Of a DNA stretch of 64,000 nucleotides, positions 19,641 through 36,638 are shown piece after piece. Location of the stretch: positions 4,355,001 through 4,419,000 of the forward strand of contig NZ_LT607413.1 of assembly GCF_900091495.1 (NCBI RefSeq), given 5' to 3'. The notes under the pieces were generated by a model. It made no database searches, was not told the DNA's origin, and was given only the letters and a program-made list of their open reading frames with translations. Position 1 is the stretch's first letter. Each line of letters starts with the position of its first letter. Both the position numbers and the translations under genes were made by a program. The stretch comes from Micromonospora echinospora (GTDB taxonomy: Bacteria > Actinomycetota > Actinomycetes > Mycobacteriales > Micromonosporaceae).

Positions 19641-20048
19641 TTAGGTCCGTTTCGGGGTGAGGGTGAACACTCCGGGTTGGTTCTCGGTCAGGACGTGATG
19701 CTTGACCATGCGTTTGAGCTTCGCGCGGGCGCTCTCGACGTGTTTCGGGATGGGGTCGACGCCGAGGGCGAGGCAGATGTCCTTGGCCCGCATGCCGGTG
19801 GTCGTGGTGTCGAGGACCGTCAGGATCTGCTGGTAGGGGGCGCTGGCTATCGTCGGGTCATCGGCGGTGAACTCGGCGGCGGTGAGGATGCGCAGCGTGG
19901 TGCGGGTGACCTTCAGGTCAGCCAGCTCGCCCTCGATGCGGGCGAGGTCGGCGGTGAGGGCGGTGATCTGCTCGCGTAGCCGGTCGGCGGCCTGATCGGC
20001 GGTGGCTTCGCGTGCGGTGATCAGGTCGAGGATCACGGTGAGGTTCAC
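19641..20048 (-). CDS. IS passenger: coiled-coil + C-terminal HTH-like protein
   Basis: GTG 20048 overlaps the transposase stop (GTGA), so translation is coupled. The 135-aa product starts VNLTVILDLITAREATADQ, has a heptad-rich coiled coil (DRLREQITALTADLARIEGELADL) at about 20-45, and a C-terminal winged-helix-like part (GMRAKDICLALGVDP, then ESARAKLKRMVKHHVL). It could help or restrain transposition, or bind DNA; no function is established to my knowledge. Similar small proteins appear beside actinobacterial IS5-like transposases, by recollection. Confidence 0.72.
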   Translation of the reverse strand: MNLTVILDLITAREATADQAADRLREQITALTADLARIEGELADLKVTRTTLRILTAAEFTADDPTIASAPYQQILTVLDTTTTGMRAKDICLALGVDPIPKHVESARAKLKRMVKHHVLTENQPGVFTLTPKRT

Positions 20049-20875
20049 CGGTGTCGCCAGGACGGTGTGCTGGTGCCGGTCAGCCGGCGCACGATGGTGA
20101 CCATCGACGCCCACAACGTTCGTGACACGGCCGATTCTGGGCGGCTCTCGTACTCGCGCACGAGCCGGCGGTGCAGCATCAACGTGCCGTAGGTCTGCTC
20201 GACGATCCACCGCTTGCGTACTGGCACGAACCCGGGTCGGGTGTCGGATCGTTTGACGACCTCGACGTCGATCCCGAGGACGGAGCCGTGCAGCGCGAGG
20301 TCCTGCTTGAACCCGGCGTCGACCCACGCCCGGGTGACCGTCGGGGCGCGCTCGACGACTGTGTCGAGCAGTCGGATGCCGATGGCGTTGTCGGTGACCG
20401 AGGCGGCGGTCACCACGACCGCGATGACCAGACCGAGGGTGTCCACGGCCAGGGCGCGCTTGCGGCCGGACACCTTCTTGCCGGCGTCCTTGCCGGTCGT
20501 GGCGGCCGGGACATGGTTCGCCGCCCGGACCGACTGGCTGTCCAACACGACCGCGGTCGGATCCTCGGTCCGGCCGGCCTTCTCCCTGGCCTGGCAGCGC
20601 AGCAGATCATGGATCGCCTGGTCGGTGCCGTCGTCCCGCCACAGGGCGAAGTAGTAGTAGGTCGCGGACTTCGGCGGCAGGTCGTGCGGCAGGTACGCCC
20701 ACTGACAGCCGGTCCGGTTCTGGTAGAGGATCGCGTTCACGATCTCCCGCAGGTCGTAGTCACCCTGATGCCCCGAGACCGAGACCCGCTTGGCCTTCCA
20801 CGCCCGCAGGAACGGCCCGATCAACGCCCACTGCGCGTCGGTGACATCGCTGGGGTACGGCTTCCGATCACCCAT
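20045..20875 (-). CDS. IS5-family DDE transposase
   Basis: A 276-aa single-frame transposase. The N-terminus (YPSDVTDAQWALIGPFL) is the DUF4096-type region typical of the IS5/IS1182-like actinobacterial group. Catalytic residues are D112 (VVLDSQSVR), D186 (AWVDAGFK) and E226 (WIVEQTYG), the DDE triad with normal spacing. Many IS427 members need a frameshift to make the full protein; here it is one frame. It starts at ATG 20875 and ends in the GTGA overlap with the passenger gene. Confidence 0.93.
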   Translation of the reverse strand: MGDRKPYPSDVTDAQWALIGPFLRAWKAKRVSVSGHQGDYDLREIVNAILYQNRTGCQWAYLPHDLPPKSATYYYFALWRDDGTDQAIHDLLRCQAREKAGRTEDPTAVVLDSQSVRAANHVPAATTGKDAGKKVSGRKRALAVDTLGLVIAVVVTAASVTDNAIGIRLLDTVVERAPTVTRAWVDAGFKQDLALHGSVLGIDVEVVKRSDTRPGFVPVRKRWIVEQTYGTLMLHRRLVREYESRPESAVSRTLWASMVTIVRRLTGTSTPSWRHR

Positions 20876-22312: not shown

Positions 22313-24463
22313 TCAATCGACCTCGTTCGCTGGGCCGAGTTCGCGAAGGACTCGCCACGCGAGGTCGGCGAGGGTCTCCCCGGAGCTCACGGCCCACCGA
22401 GCGGTCCCTTGGTTGGCTACCGGCCGATTCTCCCAGCCGGCCAGCTCCCACATATGAGAGATCAGCCCGGACGGCGAGTACCGTTGACCGTCGGCCGCCC
22501 AGAGGATCGGCTTGCCGCGGTGCGGAACCCACGTTGCGCGTCCCCGCTTCGGGGTTTCGGCCAGCCAGTCGCGGAGTGCCTCTGCCTCGCTTGCAAACGG
22601 CGTGACGAAGGTGAGCGCCTCCCCTTCGGGGAGAACGGCCTTGTCGACGAGGACGGAGACAGCGTTCGGACGGCGCTTGCGGCCCGGTGGCAGTCGGCGG
22701 TACTTGTTCCCCGATGGCGAAGGAGTAGCTCCGGCCGGGTCAAGCACATGTTCAGCGATCTCGCGACAACGTGTGACGTCCGAGCAGACCACTCGGATCT
22801 GCGCGCGGTCCGTATACAGCTCGTCGATGGCCGCCGCCACTGTGGGCAACAACCCCTCAACCAGGCTTTGTACCTGTTCGACCGCCTGCTTCGCCCACTC
22901 CAACTTCGAGTCGGGCTCATCGATCGCCTCGGTGTCGAGTCTGCGGAACACGAGGTGGGCGAGAAGGTACCCGCCGTGTTCGATCAGTGCGGCGCCACGC
23001 CCGGTGTATAGCGGCCGTAGCTCATGCAGGACACGGCGTACCTGTCGCAGCACCAGAACAGCGTTCCAGAGCGCATAGACGCCGAGTTGTGGCCGGAACA
23101 GGACGTCGTAGATTCCTTGTGAGCCGCGCTCCCACAAGACATCGAGCGTGGTTGCGATCCGGGCCGCGTACTGGCTGTCGGGGTGGGCGCAGGCGAGTGC
23201 GCAGGCGGCCTCGACCACCGAACAGCCGGTGTCCGGCTGAGGTTCCAGCTCTCCCCGGCGGACGCTGTAGTCGAGCCCGAGCTCGGCCCGCATGTCTTCC
23301 AGGATGACTGCCTGCACCGGATCCAGGGCGATGAAGTCCCGAGCCTCGACCCGGTTCTGCCGGTTGGTCGCCTGGGTGGCCTGCTTCGCGAACTGAACGG
23401 CCTTGCCCGTCACGATGACGCGCACGCCAACCTGAGCGGAGCCGGATTCCTCGTCTGTGGAGACGGCCTCCGCAATGGACCGGACGGTCTGCGCCCCGTT
23501 CACCACACTGGCGTTGTGCAAGGTCAGCTTGATCGGTCGCGAGTGCGGCGACCGTATCGCCTGCTGGACGGACTCGACGGACTCGCAGAGGATGGTGACC
23601 CCGTTGTTGAAGTACCAGAAGTTTCCGGGCTCCCTCATCAGCGTGTCGATCATCTCGTTGTTGATCGGGGTACGGCCGAGGGGGTTGCGGATGTTCAGGT
23701 TGAACAGGTTCGTGCCGTGTTCAACCCACTGCGCCACTTGTGCGGCTTCTGCCACACCTTGATAGGAGACGTAGGGCGTGCTGACCGTGAACCACGGGAA
23801 CAGCTCAGCCTCCAGCTCCACGGGGCGTGGTGACATGTCCTCGCGGACCGAAGCCCAGACCTCGGGCGCGAGGATGATGCGGCTGTCGAGAACGTTGCCG
23901 AGGCGATTGAACTCCCGCTCCCCGCCACGGATCGCATCGAGGAAGCCGAAGGGCACGTCGTCGGCGCGCATCAGGACGACGACCTGCGTCACCGGAACCG
24001 GCCCCTGAGACATGACGTTCTTGGCCTGTTCCGCCAGGATCCGGCCGCGTAGGTTGAACGGTGCGAAGTCCTCGTCGTCGATCAGTCGCAGGCCGGCGAG
24101 AAGCTCCATCACCGCAGACCGGTCGGCGCTGGCGTTGCCGTTCTTGCTCCACTTGGCCTGGACCAGGTAAACATGCGGGTCGGGCTTCTCCACCACCGCT
24201 ATCGCATCGATGCCCTGGTCTGCGACGCCGTCGATGACGGTGAGAGCCGAGTCCTGCGGAGTCCACCCGGTGACGATACGAACGGCCTGCGCGGCGAGCG
24301 CCCGGGAGAGCGCCCGAGGGGTGCGCTCCTCATCCGGACGCCCCTCAAGATCTTCAAGATTGAGCAGGCCGTCGTTGATGTAGGTGGTGCGAAGAGCGGC
24401 CTCGACCTGGCGTACCTGTAGTGCCGTGTCGCGGGTGCCGGATCGGCGGCCGGCTGAACTCAA
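22313..24463 (-). CDS. AIPR-family abortive infection protein with N-terminal PD-(D/E)xK domain
   Basis: A 716-aa protein. The AIPR core is recognised by NLNIRNPLGRTPIN and FWYFNNGVTILCE (about 282-290 for the aromatic-NNG motif), the signature of abortive-infection phage-resistance proteins. Upstream, residues 82-104 read like a Mrr/PD-(D/E)xK nuclease: D-Q-G-I-D, a beta strand, then LVQAKW (Q-x-K). The start is TTG 24463, chosen because GGGAGG lies five bases before it. It begins 71 bases after hsdR on the same strand, so it is the last gene of the type I operon. Role in phage defence is inferred from the family and position; a trigger is unknown. Confidence 0.82.
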   Translation of the reverse strand: MSSAGRRSGTRDTALQVRQVEAALRTTYINDGLLNLEDLEGRPDEERTPRALSRALAAQAVRIVTGWTPQDSALTVIDGVADQGIDAIAVVEKPDPHVYLVQAKWSKNGNASADRSAVMELLAGLRLIDDEDFAPFNLRGRILAEQAKNVMSQGPVPVTQVVVLMRADDVPFGFLDAIRGGEREFNRLGNVLDSRIILAPEVWASVREDMSPRPVELEAELFPWFTVSTPYVSYQGVAEAAQVAQWVEHGTNLFNLNIRNPLGRTPINNEMIDTLMREPGNFWYFNNGVTILCESVESVQQAIRSPHSRPIKLTLHNASVVNGAQTVRSIAEAVSTDEESGSAQVGVRVIVTGKAVQFAKQATQATNRQNRVEARDFIALDPVQAVILEDMRAELGLDYSVRRGELEPQPDTGCSVVEAACALACAHPDSQYAARIATTLDVLWERGSQGIYDVLFRPQLGVYALWNAVLVLRQVRRVLHELRPLYTGRGAALIEHGGYLLAHLVFRRLDTEAIDEPDSKLEWAKQAVEQVQSLVEGLLPTVAAAIDELYTDRAQIRVVCSDVTRCREIAEHVLDPAGATPSPSGNKYRRLPPGRKRRPNAVSVLVDKAVLPEGEALTFVTPFASEAEALRDWLAETPKRGRATWVPHRGKPILWAADGQRYSPSGLISHMWELAGWENRPVANQGTARWAVSSGETLADLAWRVLRELGPANEVD

Positions 24464-24534
24464 GTCATCCTCCCAGGGGGATCGCGGAAAAGTGCAAAGT
24501 GGATTGTTGCACGAGAAATTTGATCTCAGGTCGT

Positions 24535-27500
24535 TTATCCGGCGGTGACGGTCCAATCGCTGGCGAAGGTCTCCATCTGGCGGATGACCAGGTCGATGGC
24601 GGCGCGTTCGTGGTCCGGCGGATAGTCGTAGCGGGCCAGCAGCCGGCGGATGTGGCTGCGTAGCTTCGCGCGTACCGGTTCACGGGAGAACCAGTCCACC
24701 GTGATCGACGACTGGATCGACTTGACCAGTTCCCGGGCGATCTCTGCCAGGGTGCCGACACCCATGAGCTCCGTGGCCGCGCCGTTCTGCGCGACGGCGT
24801 CGTAGAACGCCAGTTCGGCGTGGTTGAGTGGAGGGTCGAACCGCTGGCCGCGTCGAGCGTCCGCAGATACCTGCTTGGCCAGCTCGACCAGCTCGACGAT
24901 GAGCTGCGCGCTGGTCAACTGCTGGCGCATGTAGCGGTTCATCAGGTCTTCGAGCTGGGCAGAGAAGCGTTCCTGCCGGACCACGTTGTGTTTGGTGACC
25001 TCGCGCATCTTCCGCTGGATCAGCCGGCGCAGCGCCGAGGCGGCCAGGTGCGGGGTCTCGGAGTCCTGCAGGCGCTGCAACGCGACCCCGTTGAGCTCGG
25101 TGATGTCGAGCTTGCCGAGGCCCGCTTCCTCGTAGATGTCGGTGATGTCGGCGGCGTCGACCACCTCGGCGGCGAGCTGGGACAGGTAGCGTTCCACCTC
25201 GGCGGTGTTGGGCAGACCCTTGGCCTCTCGATCGGCGGCCTCCTCCTTGACGACCCAGACCCGAACGTCGCGGAAGTACTGGATGTCACGGCGTAGGCCC
25301 TGGATGTCGCCGGCACGTTCGACGAAGTCGCGGCTGGTGGCGCACAGCCGGTAGAAGCGTTCCAGTCGGCCTGCGGAGTCGCGGAAACGCTGGTGCAGTG
25401 GCTTCGTGCCGCGCTCGACGACGTTCCCGGGGGTCCGCGGGTCGCGAAGGAAGTTGGCGGATTTCCGCACCGCCCGACGCCAGCGGGCCGGATCGCCTTC
25501 GTCGTCGACGATCGTCCGCCACTTCACCGGCGCCAGCATGGCCTCGATGACGGAGATCTCGTTGCGCACCTCGCTGATGGCACGATCGATGTCCCGGCCG
25601 AGGGTCTGGTCCTCCTGGTCGCTGGGCGTGTACTCGGTGAGCGCCTTCCGCAGGTTCTCCGTCAGTGGGGCGTAGCCGACCAGCAGGCCGTCCTGCTTCT
25701 CCCGGAAACGCCGGTTGACCCGGGCGAGGGCCTGCATCAGGTTGGCGCCCTTCATCGGCCGGTCCATGTAGATCGTGTGGATCGGCGGCGCGTCGTAGCC
25801 GGTGAGCAGCATCGAGTGCACGATGAGCAGCTCCAGTTCGTCGTCCGGGTCCTTGGCGCGGGCCTGGACGCGCTTCTGCTGCGACGGCCGCAGGCGATGC
25901 GGGCGCAGCACCTCCTTGTCGCTGGGCTCCCCGTGGAAGACGATCTTCATCTTGCCCTTGTCGACGGCCGGGTCCGCCCAGTCGGGCCGCAGCTTCTCGA
26001 TAGCCTCGAAGACGCGAACGCAGATCTCCCGGGTAGCGCAGACGAGCATGGCCTTGCCCGGCCCACCGAGCTGCGGCCGCATCAGGTCGCGTCGCTTCTC
26101 CCAGTGGTCGACCAGGTCCTTGGCGAGGGTCTCAACCCGGTCGGGCGCGCCGTATACGGTGTTCATGGTGGCCGCGTACGCCTCGGCCTTGCGCCGCTCC
26201 GCGTCGTCGAGGCTGGCGGTGAGCGTCTCCACCTGCTCGTCGATGCTGTTCGGATCGATGTCCGGCGGCAGCGACACGGGGATGATCCGCGGCTCGTGGT
26301 AGACCCGTACGGTCGCCTCGTCGTCAACGGCACGCTTGAGGTCGTACACGTCGATGTAGTCGCCGAAGACGGCGCGGGTGTTCACCTCGGCGGTGGCGAT
26401 CGGGGTGCCAGTGAAGGCGATGAACGTGGCGTGCGGCAGCGCGTCACGCAGGTGCCGGGCGTAGCCGTCCAGGCTGTCGTAGTGGCTGCGGTGCGCCTCG
26501 TCGACGATCACCAGGATGTTGCGCCGGTCGGAAAGGAGCGGATGCGGTCGCCCGGCCTCCCGCTCCTCTTTCGTACGCCCGAACTTCTGCAGGGTCGTGA
26601 AGATGACGCCACCGGCGTTCCGGTTCGACAGCTTGTCCCGCAGTTCGGCGCGGGTTTCTGCCTGCTCCGGTGCCTGACCCAGCAGGTCCCGACTGTCAGC
26701 GAACGTGTCGAAGAGTTGGTCGTCGAGGTCGTTGCGATCGGTGAGCATCACGATGGTCGGGTTCTTCAGCGCGGGGTGACGAGCGGTCAGCGCCGACGTG
26801 CACACCATCTCCTCGGACTTGCCGGAGCCCTGCGTGTGCCAGACGACGCCGGCTTTCCCGTCACTCTGGGACGCCCGGACGATACAGTCGACGGCCCGGG
26901 TCACCGCGAAGTGCTGGTGCGCCTTGGCAATCCGCTTGGTCTTCGACGTGAAGTTGACGAAGCCGCCGGTCAGCTCCAGGAAACGCCGTTGGTTGAACAC
27001 GCCGTGGAGGGCGACGATCAGCGCCTCCGGGCCGTCGTAGTCCGGCGCGCTGGTGTCGACGCGCGCGCCCTCGTCGTCGACGTTCCAGGGCGCGAAGTGT
27101 TCATAGGGGGTGAACGGCGTGCCGTACTTCGCGGTGACCCCGTCGGAGATCAGGCACAGCACGGCGTGCCGGAACGCGAGCGGGAACTCCGCGAGGTACG
27201 TCTGGAGCTGCGCGTGCGCGCCAGTGATGGTGGCATTCTCGTCGGCGGCGTTCTTCAGTTCGACGATGGCGACCGGCAGGCCGTTGAGGTAGAGCACGAT
27301 GTCGAACCGACATCGGAGGTCGCCGTCGACGACCATGACCTGGTTGATCGCCCGGTAGATGTTGCGGCCGGGGTCGTGCAGGTCCGCAAAGCGCACGGTG
27401 GGGGTCCGCTCTGCGCCGAACGAGTCGGTGTACGGGATCGGACGGCCGTGTACCAGCCGTTTGTGCGCCGCCCGGTTCTCGGCGAACGCTTCCCGGGAGG

Positions 27501-27735
27501 TCACCTCGGTGGCGGCGCGCACCGCGTCGGCGACAGCCGTCGGCGGTAGGTCCGAATTGAGGCGTTCGATCGCTACCCGCAGATCCTCGAAGAGCACCAG
27601 ATCGGCCCAGTCCCGCCGCTGACCCGACCCCGGCGCGAACTCCTTCCCGGCACCCGGTTCCCACCCGAGCTCGCCGAGCTGTTCCAGCGCAAGCGCCTCC
27701 CAGTCGGCCTCGTTCATCCGCCCGTCCAAACCCAT
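24535..27735 (-). CDS. hsdR: Type I restriction endonuclease subunit R
   Basis: The motor and nuclease of the HsdRMS complex, 1066 aa. The nuclease domain has D145 in RFDIVLYLNG and E159-L-K161, the PD-ExK triad. The SF2 translocase has Walker A TQGSGKS (about 301-307), the LTDRNDL motif Ia, DEAH at 412-415 and motif III FTGTPI. The C-terminal ~300 residues are helical and would dock to HsdM. ATG 27735 is preceded by GGGAGGGG, five bases away. The gene follows hsdS by 32 bp. All motifs look intact. Confidence 0.96.
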   Translation of the reverse strand: MGLDGRMNEADWEALALEQLGELGWEPGAGKEFAPGSGQRRDWADLVLFEDLRVAIERLNSDLPPTAVADAVRAATEVTSREAFAENRAAHKRLVHGRPIPYTDSFGAERTPTVRFADLHDPGRNIYRAINQVMVVDGDLRCRFDIVLYLNGLPVAIVELKNAADENATITGAHAQLQTYLAEFPLAFRHAVLCLISDGVTAKYGTPFTPYEHFAPWNVDDEGARVDTSAPDYDGPEALIVALHGVFNQRRFLELTGGFVNFTSKTKRIAKAHQHFAVTRAVDCIVRASQSDGKAGVVWHTQGSGKSEEMVCTSALTARHPALKNPTIVMLTDRNDLDDQLFDTFADSRDLLGQAPEQAETRAELRDKLSNRNAGGVIFTTLQKFGRTKEEREAGRPHPLLSDRRNILVIVDEAHRSHYDSLDGYARHLRDALPHATFIAFTGTPIATAEVNTRAVFGDYIDVYDLKRAVDDEATVRVYHEPRIIPVSLPPDIDPNSIDEQVETLTASLDDAERRKAEAYAATMNTVYGAPDRVETLAKDLVDHWEKRRDLMRPQLGGPGKAMLVCATREICVRVFEAIEKLRPDWADPAVDKGKMKIVFHGEPSDKEVLRPHRLRPSQQKRVQARAKDPDDELELLIVHSMLLTGYDAPPIHTIYMDRPMKGANLMQALARVNRRFREKQDGLLVGYAPLTENLRKALTEYTPSDQEDQTLGRDIDRAISEVRNEISVIEAMLAPVKWRTIVDDEGDPARWRRAVRKSANFLRDPRTPGNVVERGTKPLHQRFRDSAGRLERFYRLCATSRDFVERAGDIQGLRRDIQYFRDVRVWVVKEEAADREAKGLPNTAEVERYLSQLAAEVVDAADITDIYEEAGLGKLDITELNGVALQRLQDSETPHLAASALRRLIQRKMREVTKHNVVRQERFSAQLEDLMNRYMRQQLTSAQLIVELVELAKQVSADARRGQRFDPPLNHAELAFYDAVAQNGAATELMGVGTLAEIARELVKSIQSSITVDWFSREPVRAKLRSHIRRLLARYDYPPDHERAAIDLVIRQMETFASDWTVTAG

Positions 27736-27767
27736 CCCAACCCCTCCCCGCGAACCGTTATTCCTCT

Positions 27768-28947
27768 TTAAACCGTTAGTTCGGCGACCTCTTCGGCGTC
27801 CTTGACCCGTAACCGCCCCGACATCAACTCCGGCAGTAACGTATCCCGAAGGGCTGCCAGCGCCTTCGACTCGTTAAGTGCCGCGTCCGCCCTCTCCTCA
27901 AGCGCAGACAGTCGATGCGCCAGGTCTTCCGTGTTTTTCGTAGGAATCTGCACCACGAGAGACGCCAGCTTGGAGCGGCTGAGCTCTGTTTGGCCCGTTG
28001 AACCTTCTCCCAGCGCTTCAATTTCTGATTGAGCCGCTAGTAGAGCAAAGCCGCCGATGATTGCTGGAAGTGGCGATGCGATCCTGATAATGGTGACGTG
28101 CGAGTCAGTGGTTGCTGCTATGGCATGAGACCAGATACCCACACGCCCCAGGGTCCCGACGCCAGTTGAGTTGACCAGAATGTCGTATTTATGCAGGATT
28201 CGATCCTGCTTGACGCGATTGGCCTCCGTGAGGCGTGCGGGTTCGAGAAGGATGCGGCCATCGCGGACACACTTTTGGTTCAGAACCGTGATGCCCGTGG
28301 AGTTGTCGGTGTATTTGGGTGCTTGTCCCCTCGTCAGTAATACTGCTATTCGGCCGACGGTCTCTTCCGTTCCTGACTCCGTTAAGGCTTCTCGGTATAG
28401 GGCCGTCCCGAGTTCGCGTGAAGCGGCGGCGATGCGGTCGTTGGTCGCAATCTTGTCATCCAATGCTCCCAGGATTGCAGATATGCGGCGCTGCGTTGGA
28501 ACGTCAGGTATCCTGATGGGCCATTTCGGAAGCTCCACCAGCGGAATTCGGTCTACGGTTGCTCCGTGAATCTTCCGCGCTTGGATCACCTGCTGGAACT
28601 CCGGCGACAAATAGGCCAACAGCAGGAATCTCGGTTCGACTATTTCGCGTCTCGGTCGGAGAAGGCCCATCCGGCGGCCTAGCGCCGCCCTGATTCCTTC
28701 GGGCATGAGTGCTGCCTCGCCGAGTCTCGTCTCGTAAGAGAAGAGAATGTCCCCTGGGCTCGGTGTTACTCTTCTGGTCCAGCGCTCGAAATCTTGTTCG
28801 GATAGGTGGGCTGATTGAGATAGTTCGAGGCGTCCGGAAATGAGGCTCGAAATACTTAGGAACCAGGGTCCTTTTTCGGTCTTGGTGGGGGTTGCATGAG
28901 GTCCGTCAAATACGTTAGCTACGTCCCCTAGGGCGTAGGTTCGCCAA

Positions 28948-28955
<8 letters not shown>
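27768..28955 (-). CDS. hsdS: Type I restriction specificity subunit S
   Basis: HsdS (395 aa) supplies sequence recognition through two target-recognition domains. The first TRD starts MSDWRTYALGDVANVFDG; the first conserved spacer helix (VPTQRRISAILGALDDKI) is near residue 155; the second TRD is about 195-330; the second helix ends LLPELMSGRLRV. ATG 28955 has AGGAGGG upstream and overlaps the hsdM stop by 8 bp. The gene is clearly poorer in GC than its neighbours (for example 28080-28360), the usual sign of exchange of recognition domains. The target site cannot be predicted. Confidence 0.93.
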
Positions 28956-30564
<1,609 letters not shown>

Positions 30565-30584
30565 TGTGTGTTCCGTTCTCTCGT

Positions 30585-32621
30585 TCAGGAGTTCGTACCG
30601 TACAAAGTCGTGAGGGTGCCGTCGGCGAAGCCCGCCACTGCGAGTTCGCGCAGTTCGGCGAGGAGGCCGGTCTGCCGCTGGAGTAGGCGCTCGCGCTGGT
30701 CGAGGCGACGCAGCACCTCATCCAGGCGGGTTGCCTCGTCCCGGTTCAGGTCGGGGATCGTCACATCCCGTAGCCGTGGGCCGCGTACCGCGCCAGGGCT
30801 GCGCGTGGTGTTGCGGGCGGTGTCCAGCAGCGCCTTCAGGACACGCGGGGTGAGGACGTCGCCGGAGGAGATGCGCAGGCCACGAGCCGGAAACTCGATC
30901 ACCGAGAAGCCGTCCTCGTCGAGGAAGGCACCGAACCGGGGAACCGTGGTGACCACAAGATCACCCGGGTCGGTGAGAGCGACGTGCGGGTACTCGGCGG
31001 CGAGGGTGAGCCGGTCCATCCAGCGCTGGGACGACTGCGCGACGACCTCCGCACTGCCGATGACCCGGTGGTGCCCGCGTGGCCCGGCATGCTCAGGTGA
31101 CAGGCGGTGCCCGGGAAGGGGGCGGACCCGGCGAGCCGTGCGCAGCGCCTCGAGAGAGAGTTCCGCAGGTCGGGTTCCGTCGCGCCGCACTGCCCCGGTG
31201 CTCAAGGGACCATGCTCTTCGGCGTGCCGGATGGCTTCTTGCCCGGCGTCGGTGAGACGGCGTTCGACCTCGCCGATCAGCGCGGGGCGGTCGGCGGCCT
31301 CACGGGCATGCAGGGTGACCGAGGCCGGACCGGGCGATCGCAGCGCCGCGCCCCGGCGCAGGTCGAGGGCGTCGAGCGGGACCACCTGGCCGGTGCGCGG
31401 GTCGTGGCCGTCGTGGCGGTACCCCTCGGCCCGCCACAGCAGGATGTCCTCGGCTGCGGTCTCCGCGATGCGCTGGTCGAGGGCCGTGCTGCTGACGTCC
31501 GCGACCAGCAGACGGCCCTGGGTGGCTGGAACCGGGTCGCGGGTGAGCAGCCACACGGCCGGGGAGTAGCCAGGGCGAGCCGGGAAGACACCGCCGGGGA
31601 GCCACACCACCGCCTCGACGAGGCCACTGGCCAGTAGGTCTGCCCGCTTGATGATCGCGGCGGGGTCGCGCAGGACGTTGACCAGGCTCGTGGCAGGGCC
31701 GACCACGACGGCGGTGCACCCCGGGCCGAGCCGGTCGGCGATGTCACTGATCCTGGCCAGGTCCTCGGCCGGGTCGCGCAGCTCGGCGGGCTGGTAGGGG
31801 AGCCGGGCCACGACCAGGTCCACCTCGGCGAACTCATCGTTCAGGTCGTCCGGGACCACCTCGATGTTGAACTCGGGGACGCCGGTCAGCAGCAGTCGTC
31901 GCCGGATCAGGCGAGCTAGCGCCGGGTCCGGCTGAGCGGCGTTGAAACTGAACGCCGCCGGCTCCTGGTCGGTCAGCAGGGCGGCGAGCAGGTCGCCGGA
32001 GCCCGCGTGAGGGTCGCCGACCGTGAGGCGGCCGCCCGCGCGCAACCGGCCGGGCACGTCGGCGGCGAGCCGGACCAGCGTGACCAGGTGTGAGGTGAGC
32101 GCGTCGGCGCCCAGCTCCGGCCAACCGAGTCGGGCGGAGCTGCCGAGCAGGAACTGGTACGCCCGGCTCGGGTTGTAGGCGCCCTCGATCAACTGCTCGA
32201 CCATCCCCGGAATATCGGTCAGCGCGGGAGCTTCCTGCAGGTCGGTGAGGAGGAACTCGTCATCGGGGTCGAGCCGCCCGGCCAGCGGCAGCGGGTCGGG
32301 CGGCAACGGACGCCCAGCCAGGTAACGCAGGCAGAGGGCAGCGCCCAAGGACAGCACCAGGCGGCGGCCGCCGTGCTCACGGGCGTACGCGGTCAGGGTG
32401 TGCATCGCGCGCTCGGCGCGCAAGCTCTCGGCATCGGCGTTACCGAGCTTGTGGTCCAGCAGCCAGGTGAGGACCGCGTCCGCAGGGAAGAGCATCTGCC
32501 CGCTGCTGCCGGGCACCGGAGTGGGGAAATCGGAGTACCGGCGCCGCCAGGTCGTCACCACGGGACGCTCGACCCGCGCCAACAGGGCGATCTCCCCGTA
32601 CGACATGAGTTCAGCGGTCAT
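30585..32621 (-). CDS. HTH-pseudomethylase-specificity fusion at head of type I operon
   Basis: A 678-aa protein led by a strong ribosome site (GGAGGAGG) before ATG 32621. Residues 5-50 form a MerR-like HTH (MSYGEIALLARVERPVVTTW). Then comes an N6-adenine methylase fold in which both catalytic motifs are eroded: motif I reads GDPHAGSGDLL (203-212) and the NPPF/Y position reads ARLPYQ (272-277), lacking the Asn-Pro-Pro. The C-terminal ~200 residues look like an HsdS half: a TRD-like part, then IPDLNRDEATRLDEVLRR and a coiled coil ending LAELRELAVAGFADGTL. I infer a DNA-reading but non-methylating protein, perhaps a regulator or alternative specificity subunit of the following HsdM. Confidence 0.78.
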   Translation of the reverse strand: MTAELMSYGEIALLARVERPVVTTWRRRYSDFPTPVPGSSGQMLFPADAVLTWLLDHKLGNADAESLRAERAMHTLTAYAREHGGRRLVLSLGAALCLRYLAGRPLPPDPLPLAGRLDPDDEFLLTDLQEAPALTDIPGMVEQLIEGAYNPSRAYQFLLGSSARLGWPELGADALTSHLVTLVRLAADVPGRLRAGGRLTVGDPHAGSGDLLAALLTDQEPAAFSFNAAQPDPALARLIRRRLLLTGVPEFNIEVVPDDLNDEFAEVDLVVARLPYQPAELRDPAEDLARISDIADRLGPGCTAVVVGPATSLVNVLRDPAAIIKRADLLASGLVEAVVWLPGGVFPARPGYSPAVWLLTRDPVPATQGRLLVADVSSTALDQRIAETAAEDILLWRAEGYRHDGHDPRTGQVVPLDALDLRRGAALRSPGPASVTLHAREAADRPALIGEVERRLTDAGQEAIRHAEEHGPLSTGAVRRDGTRPAELSLEALRTARRVRPLPGHRLSPEHAGPRGHHRVIGSAEVVAQSSQRWMDRLTLAAEYPHVALTDPGDLVVTTVPRFGAFLDEDGFSVIEFPARGLRISSGDVLTPRVLKALLDTARNTTRSPGAVRGPRLRDVTIPDLNRDEATRLDEVLRRLDQRERLLQRQTGLLAELRELAVAGFADGTLTTLYGTNS

Positions 32622-33770: not shown

Positions 33771-33996
33771 GCGTTCGTAGTCGCACTCGGCGATCTGGTC
33801 GTCGACCTCGTAGTTGATATCGTCTATCTGGCCCGCGACCGCGCTCAGTACGTCTGCCCTGATTGCGATTTCGGTCTCCAGGCGTTCAATTACGCTGTCG
33901 GTCTCGCTGCCGTCGGCTTCGATGTCTCTCTTCTCCTGCTCAGATTGGGTTTGCCCAGCACCTCGCCGGCTGCCCGCTCGTCCGAGGCAGTTGGCT

Positions 33997-34116
33997 GAGC
34001 CGGCGAGGGCCGAGGAGAGCGCGGGTGCTGAATGCCAGATCCCCCGCAGTGGCGGAGGTTCCCGAATCGAACGGAATAGAAGGAAGCTCCCGCATGACCT
34101 CGGCCCTCGCCGACTC
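33997..34116 (-). ncRNA. Candidate structured RNA (long stem, T-arm-like hairpin) at the 3' end of the TerD gene
   Basis: The ends form a perfect 15-bp stem (cggcgagggccgagg at 34001-34015 with 34098-34112), extended by 3 bp past one mismatch to 33997/34116, directly abutting the TerD stop codon at 34116-34118. Inside, on the minus strand, are in order: ggtcatg, a short run, gcttccttct, then a T-arm-like hairpin (TTCCG-TTCGATT-CGGGA), then a CCGC-CACT-GCGG hairpin. The ggtcatg...gcttccttct block is the same as in the tRNA-like RNA at 36320-36451. Y-RNA-like tRNA mimics bound by Ro proteins have a comparable plan (known biology); identity here is inference. Confidence 0.55.
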
Positions 34117-36275
34117 TACCCAGGGATCAACTCACTGAGTCGGTCGAGAGTGTACGTCTCCGACCCGGCCGGCAGGCCCTCCGGTGCCTCGATGCCGACG
34201 TAGGTGACCGGCTCGGCCGGCAGCCGCCCGTCCCACATGGTCACCTCCGCCTTCGTGCGCCACCGGTCGACCAGGTAGGCCATGGTGAGGTACCGCCGCT
34301 CCACCAGTGCCCGTACCCGGTCGGCCGTGGTGAAGGTGTTGCCCTCCACCCGGTTGAACGAGGGCATACCCCGCAGGTAGAGGTGCAGCCAGACGGCCTG
34401 CCAGCCGTGCGCGTTCCGGGCGAACACCATCGGCAGCCCGACCCGGCCCTGGCCGCGCAGGTGCGAACGCGCCCGCACGGTCCGGGCGTCGAACGGTGCG
34501 CCGCGCTGGTCCCGGGTACGCGTCTGGTACCCGAACATCGACTCGGCGACCTCGTCGAACGACTCGCCCGCGTAGATGTTGACCTGCGGAACCACGTACC
34601 GCCCACGGACGGTCAGCGGCACGTCGATGAATTCGGTCGCGCCGTTCTTCGCATCGGTGATGTCACCGGAGTGCACCACGCCGTCGTGGCGGTAGTTCGT
34701 CCAGGACACCTGGCCCGCACTGTGGAACCCGTCGTCGAGCAGCAGCACCGACAGGTCGTAGTCGGTGCGCCGGCTGCTCTGCCGCCAGTACGTGAAGAAG
34801 CGCAGCAGCTCGCCGGAGACCGACGCCCGCGAACCCCTCGGCAGCACCGCGAAACCGCCCTCGGCCGCCTTGCCGGTCAGCGGCAGGGCGACGTCGAGCA
34901 CCTCCGGGTCCACCAGCAGCGGTCGCTCCGGTTCCGGCAGCCGGGCGGCGATCTCGGCGTCGAGCAGTGCCGACAGCTCGGCCACCAGTTCCGCCGGCAG
35001 CGGCGGCCGTTCGTCGGGTCCGACCCACGAGTTGCGCGACCGGCTGGCGTACATCCGGACGGACGCGGGCGTCAGCCGGTTGTCGACATGTTCGCGCAGG
35101 GAAAGGAGCACCCGGCCCGACGCCGAGCCGAGCGCGCCCGCGACGACGTCGACCACGGTGGTGCGCTCCGCCGCCGACGCCAGCCGCAGCAGCCGGTCGG
35201 CGGACCGCAGGAGCAGGCCCGGGGCGGCCGACAACACCGACGCGGCCGGGGCGACGGCCCCGGAGCGGATCGCGGCCTCCGCGCGACCGGCGAGGTTGGG
35301 TACCCGCCGCTCGCCACGGGCGACCGCGAACACCCGCTGCGCGTGCGGCCACTGGGCGTACTCGTGCGGGTGCAGCCGTTCCCCGAGCCGCTTCCACCGC
35401 TCCGCGTAGCGCGCGACGTCCCCGAGCTTCGCCGGGCTGGCCGCGACGACCTGGTCCAGCGCGGCCAGCAGCATCCGCCGCTCCGGGCGTCGGAAGGCAC
35501 GGAACCGGGTGGGGGTCCCGAGCGAGGGGTCCCCGTCGGAGACCTGGCAGGCCAGGCGTAGCACGTCGGTCGTGGTGTCCACGGCGACCAGCGGCCGGCC
35601 GAGGACGAGCCGGATCCCGTTGAGCACGGCCCGGTTCTCCCGTACCGGGATCTCGGCCGGCTGGGGGCCGTCCGCGCAGGCCACCGCGAGTTCGCCGAGG
35701 ATCGCCAGGTCCGCCTCGCCGTGCGGCGTGACGCTGCCGGCCAGCGCCAGGTAGAGCCGGGTCGTCTCCACCTCGGCGGTATCGCCGAGCCGCAGCAGGG
35801 TCACCCGGTCGCCGGCTGCGGCGACCAGGTCGTCGTGCGCGGCCAGCAGCTCGGCGTAGGTGTGCTGGTAGGTGCCGTAACCCGGCAGGTCGAGCAGGTT
35901 CACCCCGCCCGAGGTCACGGCCTCCCGCAGCTGCGCCTCGGTCGCCGTGCCCCCACCGGTGAGTACGGCCGCCCGGAGCCGGTCGGTCCAGAATTCGACG
36001 GTGTCCGGCACGTCGTCTGGGAAGCCGATGAAGTAGGCGTTGTGCTGGACGTGGTCACCCACCAGCTCGCGTACCGCCGTCACAACCGTGACGGCGAGGT
36101 CCATCGCCGGGCCGGGAGCCAGCGCGCCGACGTGCTCCAGCAGGGCCCGCGACGCCGAGAACCCGACGTCGAGCAGTGCCGCGTCCAGTTGCCGGGCCAC
36201 CGGCGTGCCGTCGCCGGCCGCGCCGGTGCTGACCGGTACGCGCAGTGTCTTCTGGATGATCAGCTTCTCGTTCAC
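34116..36275 (-). CDS. TerD-domain protein flanked by tRNA-like RNAs
   Basis: A 719-aa cytoplasmic protein from GTG 36275 (VNEKLIIQKTLRVPVS). Residues 30 to about 460 are a long helical region with the recognisable stretch FRRPERRMLLAALDQVV ... YAERWKRLGERLHPHEY, which I recall from TerD-linked actinobacterial proteins. The C-terminal ~220 residues are TerD-like: YDLSVLLLDDGFHSAGQVSW, then VVHSGDITDAKNGATEFIDV, the Ca-binding beta-sandwich signature of Ter proteins. The leader is the 44 nt after the tRNA-like gene; its stop touches the stem of the second RNA. A role in RNA or stress response is inferred from this arrangement. No RtcB or TROVE gene is present in the window. Confidence 0.72.
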   Translation of the reverse strand: MNEKLIIQKTLRVPVSTGAAGDGTPVARQLDAALLDVGFSASRALLEHVGALAPGPAMDLAVTVVTAVRELVGDHVQHNAYFIGFPDDVPDTVEFWTDRLRAAVLTGGGTATEAQLREAVTSGGVNLLDLPGYGTYQHTYAELLAAHDDLVAAAGDRVTLLRLGDTAEVETTRLYLALAGSVTPHGEADLAILGELAVACADGPQPAEIPVRENRAVLNGIRLVLGRPLVAVDTTTDVLRLACQVSDGDPSLGTPTRFRAFRRPERRMLLAALDQVVAASPAKLGDVARYAERWKRLGERLHPHEYAQWPHAQRVFAVARGERRVPNLAGRAEAAIRSGAVAPAASVLSAAPGLLLRSADRLLRLASAAERTTVVDVVAGALGSASGRVLLSLREHVDNRLTPASVRMYASRSRNSWVGPDERPPLPAELVAELSALLDAEIAARLPEPERPLLVDPEVLDVALPLTGKAAEGGFAVLPRGSRASVSGELLRFFTYWRQSSRRTDYDLSVLLLDDGFHSAGQVSWTNYRHDGVVHSGDITDAKNGATEFIDVPLTVRGRYVVPQVNIYAGESFDEVAESMFGYQTRTRDQRGAPFDARTVRARSHLRGQGRVGLPMVFARNAHGWQAVWLHLYLRGMPSFNRVEGNTFTTADRVRALVERRYLTMAYLVDRWRTKAEVTMWDGRLPAEPVTYVGIEAPEGLPAGSETYTLDRLSELIPG

Positions 36276-36319
36276 GTGGTCCCCCGAACGACTCCGGCCG
36301 TTGCCCCGCAGCGGCAGAG

Positions 36320-36451
36320 TGGGTCGCCGGGGACTCGAACCCCGAACCTTCCGATCCAACAAGGAGAAGAAGGAAGCGCCTCCATGACCGCAGGAGCGGA
36401 GAACGGACGCGCTACTCAGTCGGATGCTCTATCCAGTTGAGCTAACGACCC
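36320..36451 (-). ncRNA. tRNA-Arg-like RNA with a 58-nt insertion in the anticodon loop
   Basis: Minus strand, 132 nt. Every tRNA arm is intact: acceptor GGGTCGT/GCGACCC with discriminator A, D stem GCTC/GAGC, anticodon stem TCCGA/TCGGA, variable AGGTT, and T arm CGGGG-TTCGAGT-CCCCG. But the anticodon loop (36355-36419) is 65 nt, not 7. It starts CT and ends GGA, as in tRNA-Arg(ACG) (CTACGGA), so the insert replaces the anticodon. The insert can extend the arm: GCGC and TCC pair with GGA and GCGC around a CCGC-TCCT-GCGG hairpin. It then carries ggtcatg...gcttccttct, shared with 33997-34116. CCA is not encoded. No group I intron features fit its size. It heads the TerD gene by 44 nt. Confidence 0.75.
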
Positions 36452-36638
36452 AGGTGTCGATCATTGCACCGGTCGTGTCGGCCTGGCTATCGCGTTATCG
36501 CCGCCCGGGGACATCCGCCGCCCGACTGCTGGCCGTACGGGGGCAGGCGGACGAGCTGCTCGCCGAGGTCGGAGACAGCCGCGGGCGGTGGCTGAGGCAC
36601 AATTCACGCCGAGCTGAAACAGTCGAGAAAGGACAGTT

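Follow-up and report, generated by a model that had tools for sequence, protein, structure and literature searches.

Among the closest described systems to the locus treated here are the YrlA RNAs (RF02553) with the protein Rsr/Ro60, in which a small RNA adjoins the gene of a ring-like protein and a tRNA-like domain is attached via its anticodon side to a stem. Inhibition of an anticodon nuclease has been suggested as a possible role of the tRNA-like domain of YrlA (PMC7790460). The present locus lies in a stretch of 64,000 nucleotides (nt) of Micromonospora echinospora (contig NZ_LT607413.1, positions 4,355,001 to 4,419,000), hereafter the window. It comprises, on the minus strand, a chimeric RNA built of a tRNA body and an inserted module, and directly downstream the gene of a TerD-domain protein. 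The chimera is probably a Y-RNA-like partner of this Ro60-like, TerD-containing protein, and the two together seem to belong to a new family of ribonucleoprotein particles that display a tRNA.

Structure and conservation of the chimeric RNA

Read on the minus strand from 36451 to 36320, the chimera contains a complete tRNA body (49.6 bits with cmscan), the anticodon loop of which measures 65 nt instead of the usual 7 nt; with model R1 it scores 148.9 bits, aligned with 79 further matches that include a few decayed ones. The preliminary description, which reported such a body at a distance of 44 nt from a TerD-domain gene on the same strand, is confirmed in both respects. The 5' strand of the acceptor stem (36445..36451) pairs with 36321-36327 and is accompanied by a discriminator A at 36320, and the 5' strand of the anticodon stem (36420..36424) pairs with 36350-36354. 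The D arm (36426..36442, GCUC...GAGC) bears GG in its loop, the T arm (36328..36344) a TTCGA loop. Among the 74 copies left once six decayed or cut ones were removed, the tRNA tertiary residues are nearly invariant (U8 in 73, A14, GG and TTCGA in all 74). The inserted module (36368..36413) consists of helix 2 (36404-36413 with 36375-36384, one mismatch), an internal loop UUCU/UCA, helix 1 (36396-36399 with 36388-36391) capped by a tetraloop, and the motif UCCUUCU at 36368-36374. In an alignment of 77 upstream regions, a conserved block (36452..36500, minus strand; GAAAC..GATAGCC / ATGATC) precedes the chimera as a probable promoter.

A second chimera copy, 88% alike, exists in the same genome; there, only a partial match to the TerD gene (residues 3-367) is found about 8 kb off on the opposite strand (G000:C1:6186215-6187309 and 6195198-6195327). 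Full-length copies were detected by BLAST in 8 of 37 genomes of the genus, the own genome among them. With a covariance model built on nine copies, matches were obtained in 37 of 160 genus genomes and in 78 of 354 family genomes (12 of 44 genera), as well as in one extra-family genome within an order sample of 397; in the genus and family searches, long copies score 78-163 bits, and ordinary tRNAs reach about 73 bits. Beyond the Micromonosporaceae, the chimera also occurs at named loci in the genera Actinophytocola, Kineosporia and Allokutzneria.

In the alignment of 80 copies, of which 79 rows are distinct and a few are decayed, standard pairs fill 97.4% of the pair cells. Double changes occur in 15 of the 35 pairs, the kind of compensatory change sought by the covariance search proposed in the preliminary description. 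The 73 double-change cells compare with 18.5 in shuffles, in an alignment that was fitted to the covariance model and is biased towards structure. The anticodon stem takes part in this covariation (four of its five pairs, 79 distinct rows), one pair alone having 23 double-change cells. The adjoining sequence varies in length and letters: up to 74 copies show 46 different versions of the stretch between CUUCCUUC and the final 36 nt, and hence no fixed splice site or anticodon is seen. The earlier proposal of a tRNA mimic kept for a purpose other than decoding is supported. According to ARAGORN, the ordinary tRNAs of the own genome cover all 20 amino acids, two of them being Arg(ACG). A further tRNA-like sequence (G000:C1:5217808-5217880, 39 bits), to which the program assigns a four-base anticodon (gcaa), is situated about 18 kb from the Rsr gene of this genome.

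The TerD-domain gene and the module RNAs

The downstream gene (34116..36275, minus strand) encodes a protein of 719 amino acids with a helical, putatively Ro60-like region and a C-terminal domain (residues ~485-657) that has the TerD fold. Its predicted model resembles Ro60. Concerning sequence, no TROVE profile was matched in the window protein (no Pfam match at E<=10; hhalign probability 0.1%), and the C-terminal vWA domain characteristic of Ro60/Rsr is missing. NF041916, the profile of the MXAN_6230/SCO0854 family RING proteins, scores 326 bits on the protein (cut-off 600). Pfam found no RING finger in it; Prok-RING_4 is matched in a relative (P0241).

The association of RNA and gene noted in the preliminary description is supported by a full-length same-strand gene at 61 of 80 RNA loci, all 61 genes beginning 1-101 nt past the RNA (median 51). 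Among the 354 family genomes, 69 possess both, 9 only the RNA, 3 only the gene (broken or partial) and 273 neither, where a protein match means at least 72% identity at any length and the counts ignore kinship. In four genomes, RNA and gene do not adjoin, with 3 to 24 kb of intervening sequence (L204 in G084, G175, G179, and L205 in G124). The association does not extend to all TerD homologues. Among the best 80 of 431 named loci, the chimera is situated within 3 kb in 39 of the 42 with at least 76% identity (in the other three it lies farther away or on another contig of the matching genome), and it is found at none of the 38 with at most 63% identity, of which 34 possess a stand-alone module. 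Seven of these 38 are preceded by same-strand tRNA genes, ordinary or odd (L253, L254, L261, L263, L265, L268, L287). Actinokineospora has a lone Arg(ACG); at the other end of the range, Amycolatopsis and Kutzneria have arrays.

A motif search revealed the stand-alone module, a circular permutation of the insert, immediately 3' of the stop codon that ends the downstream gene. The insert has the order helix 2 (10 bp), CUCU, helix 1, loop, helix 1, UCA or CCA, helix 2, UCCUUCU; the stand-alone form begins with helix 1 and continues with CCA, helix 2, UCCUUCU, a loop region, helix 2, CUCU and helix 1. In the window, it extends over 34009..34104 (minus strand), beginning 11 nt past the stop codon of the TerD gene, and contains helix 1 (GCCGAGG/CCUCGGC), a UCA/CUCU loop, a 10-bp helix 2 with one mismatch, UCCUUCU and two further hairpins. 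By a single counting rule, it is present at 68 of the 80 named loci and at 54 of the 61 family loci with a full-length gene; as controls, 315,720 bp from other loci contained none, and 12.9 Mb of loci shuffled by mononucleotide contained 36. From 174 distinct candidates, 123 were within the pairing limit and 51 were dropped. The 123 show 285 double-change cells (shuffled mean 99, maximum 124), a covariation biased towards structure by the choice of candidates by pairing. UCCUUCU occurs in 92 of them and in plasmid and phage candidates; UCCUGCU and UCCUCCU are variants of it. No Rfam family matches the module RNAs at the loci tried.

In Streptomyces (three fragment loci left out), the module is situated 3' of the gene at 11 of 11 TerD-type loci and 5' of it, with a larger internal loop, at 14 of 16 SCO0854-type loci. 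A looser scan, which had no control of its own, revealed three good candidates on a 485-kb uncultured phage contig, two on a faecal phage contig and one on a Niallia plasmid, all beside homologues, and none at a Rhodococcus phage locus and a Variovorax plasmid locus. At the three phage loci fetched, tRNA genes lie inside the homologue or no more than about 2 kb from it, at one of these loci with RtcB 3 kb further on. On the Variovorax plasmid (L343), the SCO0854-type gene lies in the vicinity of rtcR, which activates RNA repair operons.

Downstream of the TerD gene, the window contains on the minus strand (22313-32621) the Type I restriction-modification genes HsdR and HsdM, a gene for a 678-residue protein without Pfam match in the same group, and an AIPR/AbiU-like gene. 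An IS4/5-type transposase is encoded at 20045-20875 (minus strand).

A proposed particle displaying tRNA and its alternatives

As a Y-RNA-like partner of the TerD-domain protein, the chimera would stand at the beginning of an operon and would be excised by ribonucleases (RNases) P and Z, with CCA added. The protein ring would then bind the module, and the tRNA body without anticodon would be shown to enzymes recognizing tRNA. Its role might correspond to that of the YrlA tRNA mimic beside Rsr, whether as a decoy for anticodon nucleases or as a handle by which, when tRNA is damaged, the particle attracts exonucleases or tRNA enzymes. Some doubt attaches to this partnership: minimum-energy folding of six copies gave the full cloverleaf in none of them, and the strongly conserved UCCUUCU could seed on mRNAs. 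The modules lie close to the gene on either side and on its own strand, a position that would suit cis elements of the TerD mRNA, in which case the protein would bind its own 5' tRNA-module and 3' module and thereby control translation or decay of the message, the tRNA being a cutting signal for RNases P and Z. We consider this unlikely, since no such gene exists in the 8.7 and 9 kb downstream of the second own copy and of the L076 copy, respectively, RNA and gene are 7-24 kb apart in three genomes, and one genome (G257) has four tandem module candidates (three beyond the pairing limit). Moreover, the conservation of acceptor, elbow and discriminator probably exceeds the needs of a cutting signal.

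The conserved UCCUUCU would fit a trans-acting antisense RNA pairing with the Shine-Dalgarno sequence AGAAGGA and merely stabilized by the tRNA or the stem-loop. However, conservation extends to the helix lengths, the internal loop and the link with a single protein family, and the variants of the motif exist, which makes this account quite improbable. Still less credence is due to the precursor of a working tRNA that would be cut and rejoined around a small intron; a cut and rejoined precursor was among the options of the preliminary description. The intact body and RtcB near a phage relative speak for it, but the residues beside the stem vary with no conserved boundary or anticodon, the insert exists on its own, and tRNAs for all 20 amino acids are already present. 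A decaying pseudogene with a chance insert is refuted by compensatory changes over the 79 distinct rows, although in a few copies (L182, L183) the body is partly gone; the insert is neither unique nor unstructured, as a one-off pseudogene would have it, and we give this origin practically no weight.

Beyond the partnership itself, we tentatively envisage that Ro60-type particles include a second class, served by a separate RNA family that occurs in Actinobacteria and probably also in phages and on a Bacillota plasmid. In one lineage, an intact, CCA-ready tRNA might have taken up the ring-binding module, and the particle would then present a whole tRNA as a sensor or bait in conflicts over tRNA cleavage, TerD replacing vWA as the signal-reading domain. 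Ro60 and Y RNA would then be one case of a wider design of ring proteins with tRNA-displaying small RNAs, which touches the open question why Y RNAs mimic tRNA; the uncharacterised SCO0854/TerD proteins would gain a testable RNA partner, and Rfam a family.

Comparison with tRNA, SCO0854-type proteins and YrlA

With tRNA (RF00005), the chimera shares the cloverleaf with its tertiary residues, D and T loops and discriminator A, whereas the 7-nt loop with an anticodon is replaced by 65 nt bearing a structured module, and no anticodon is conserved among the aligned copies. The window protein is related to the MXAN_6230/SCO0854 family (about 30% identity), Streptomyces members of which also carry the module RNA, placed upstream; it differs in having no RING match and in remaining under the family cut-off, and in the SCO0854-type RNAs seen, the internal loop is larger and a tRNA is lacking.

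In the own genome, two YrlA-like RNAs precede an Rsr gene matched by PF05731 (G000:C1 ~5198265-5199710; L045, L300); RF02553 scores 48.6 and 34.2 bits on them, below its 69-bit cut-off. On inspection, the second of these RNAs consists of T arm, tetraloop-closed acceptor, D arm and anticodon arm, joined to a stem. RF02553 did not match the window at 33900-36500 (E<=10), whereas the Rsr-locus control gave the two hits below the cut-off. The protein also differs, with TerD in place of vWA and no detectable TROVE similarity in sequence. In architecture, a tRNA-like domain joined to a stem, the chimera matches Y RNA, and binding of the stem by the ring is predicted. Its parts follow the same circular order as in the inspected YrlA copy, opened elsewhere: here the tRNA is unpermuted with an open acceptor, and the stem is permuted and closed. 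If the partnership is true, the same arrangement would have arisen in two RNA families whose motifs differ and whose common circular order is opened at different points.
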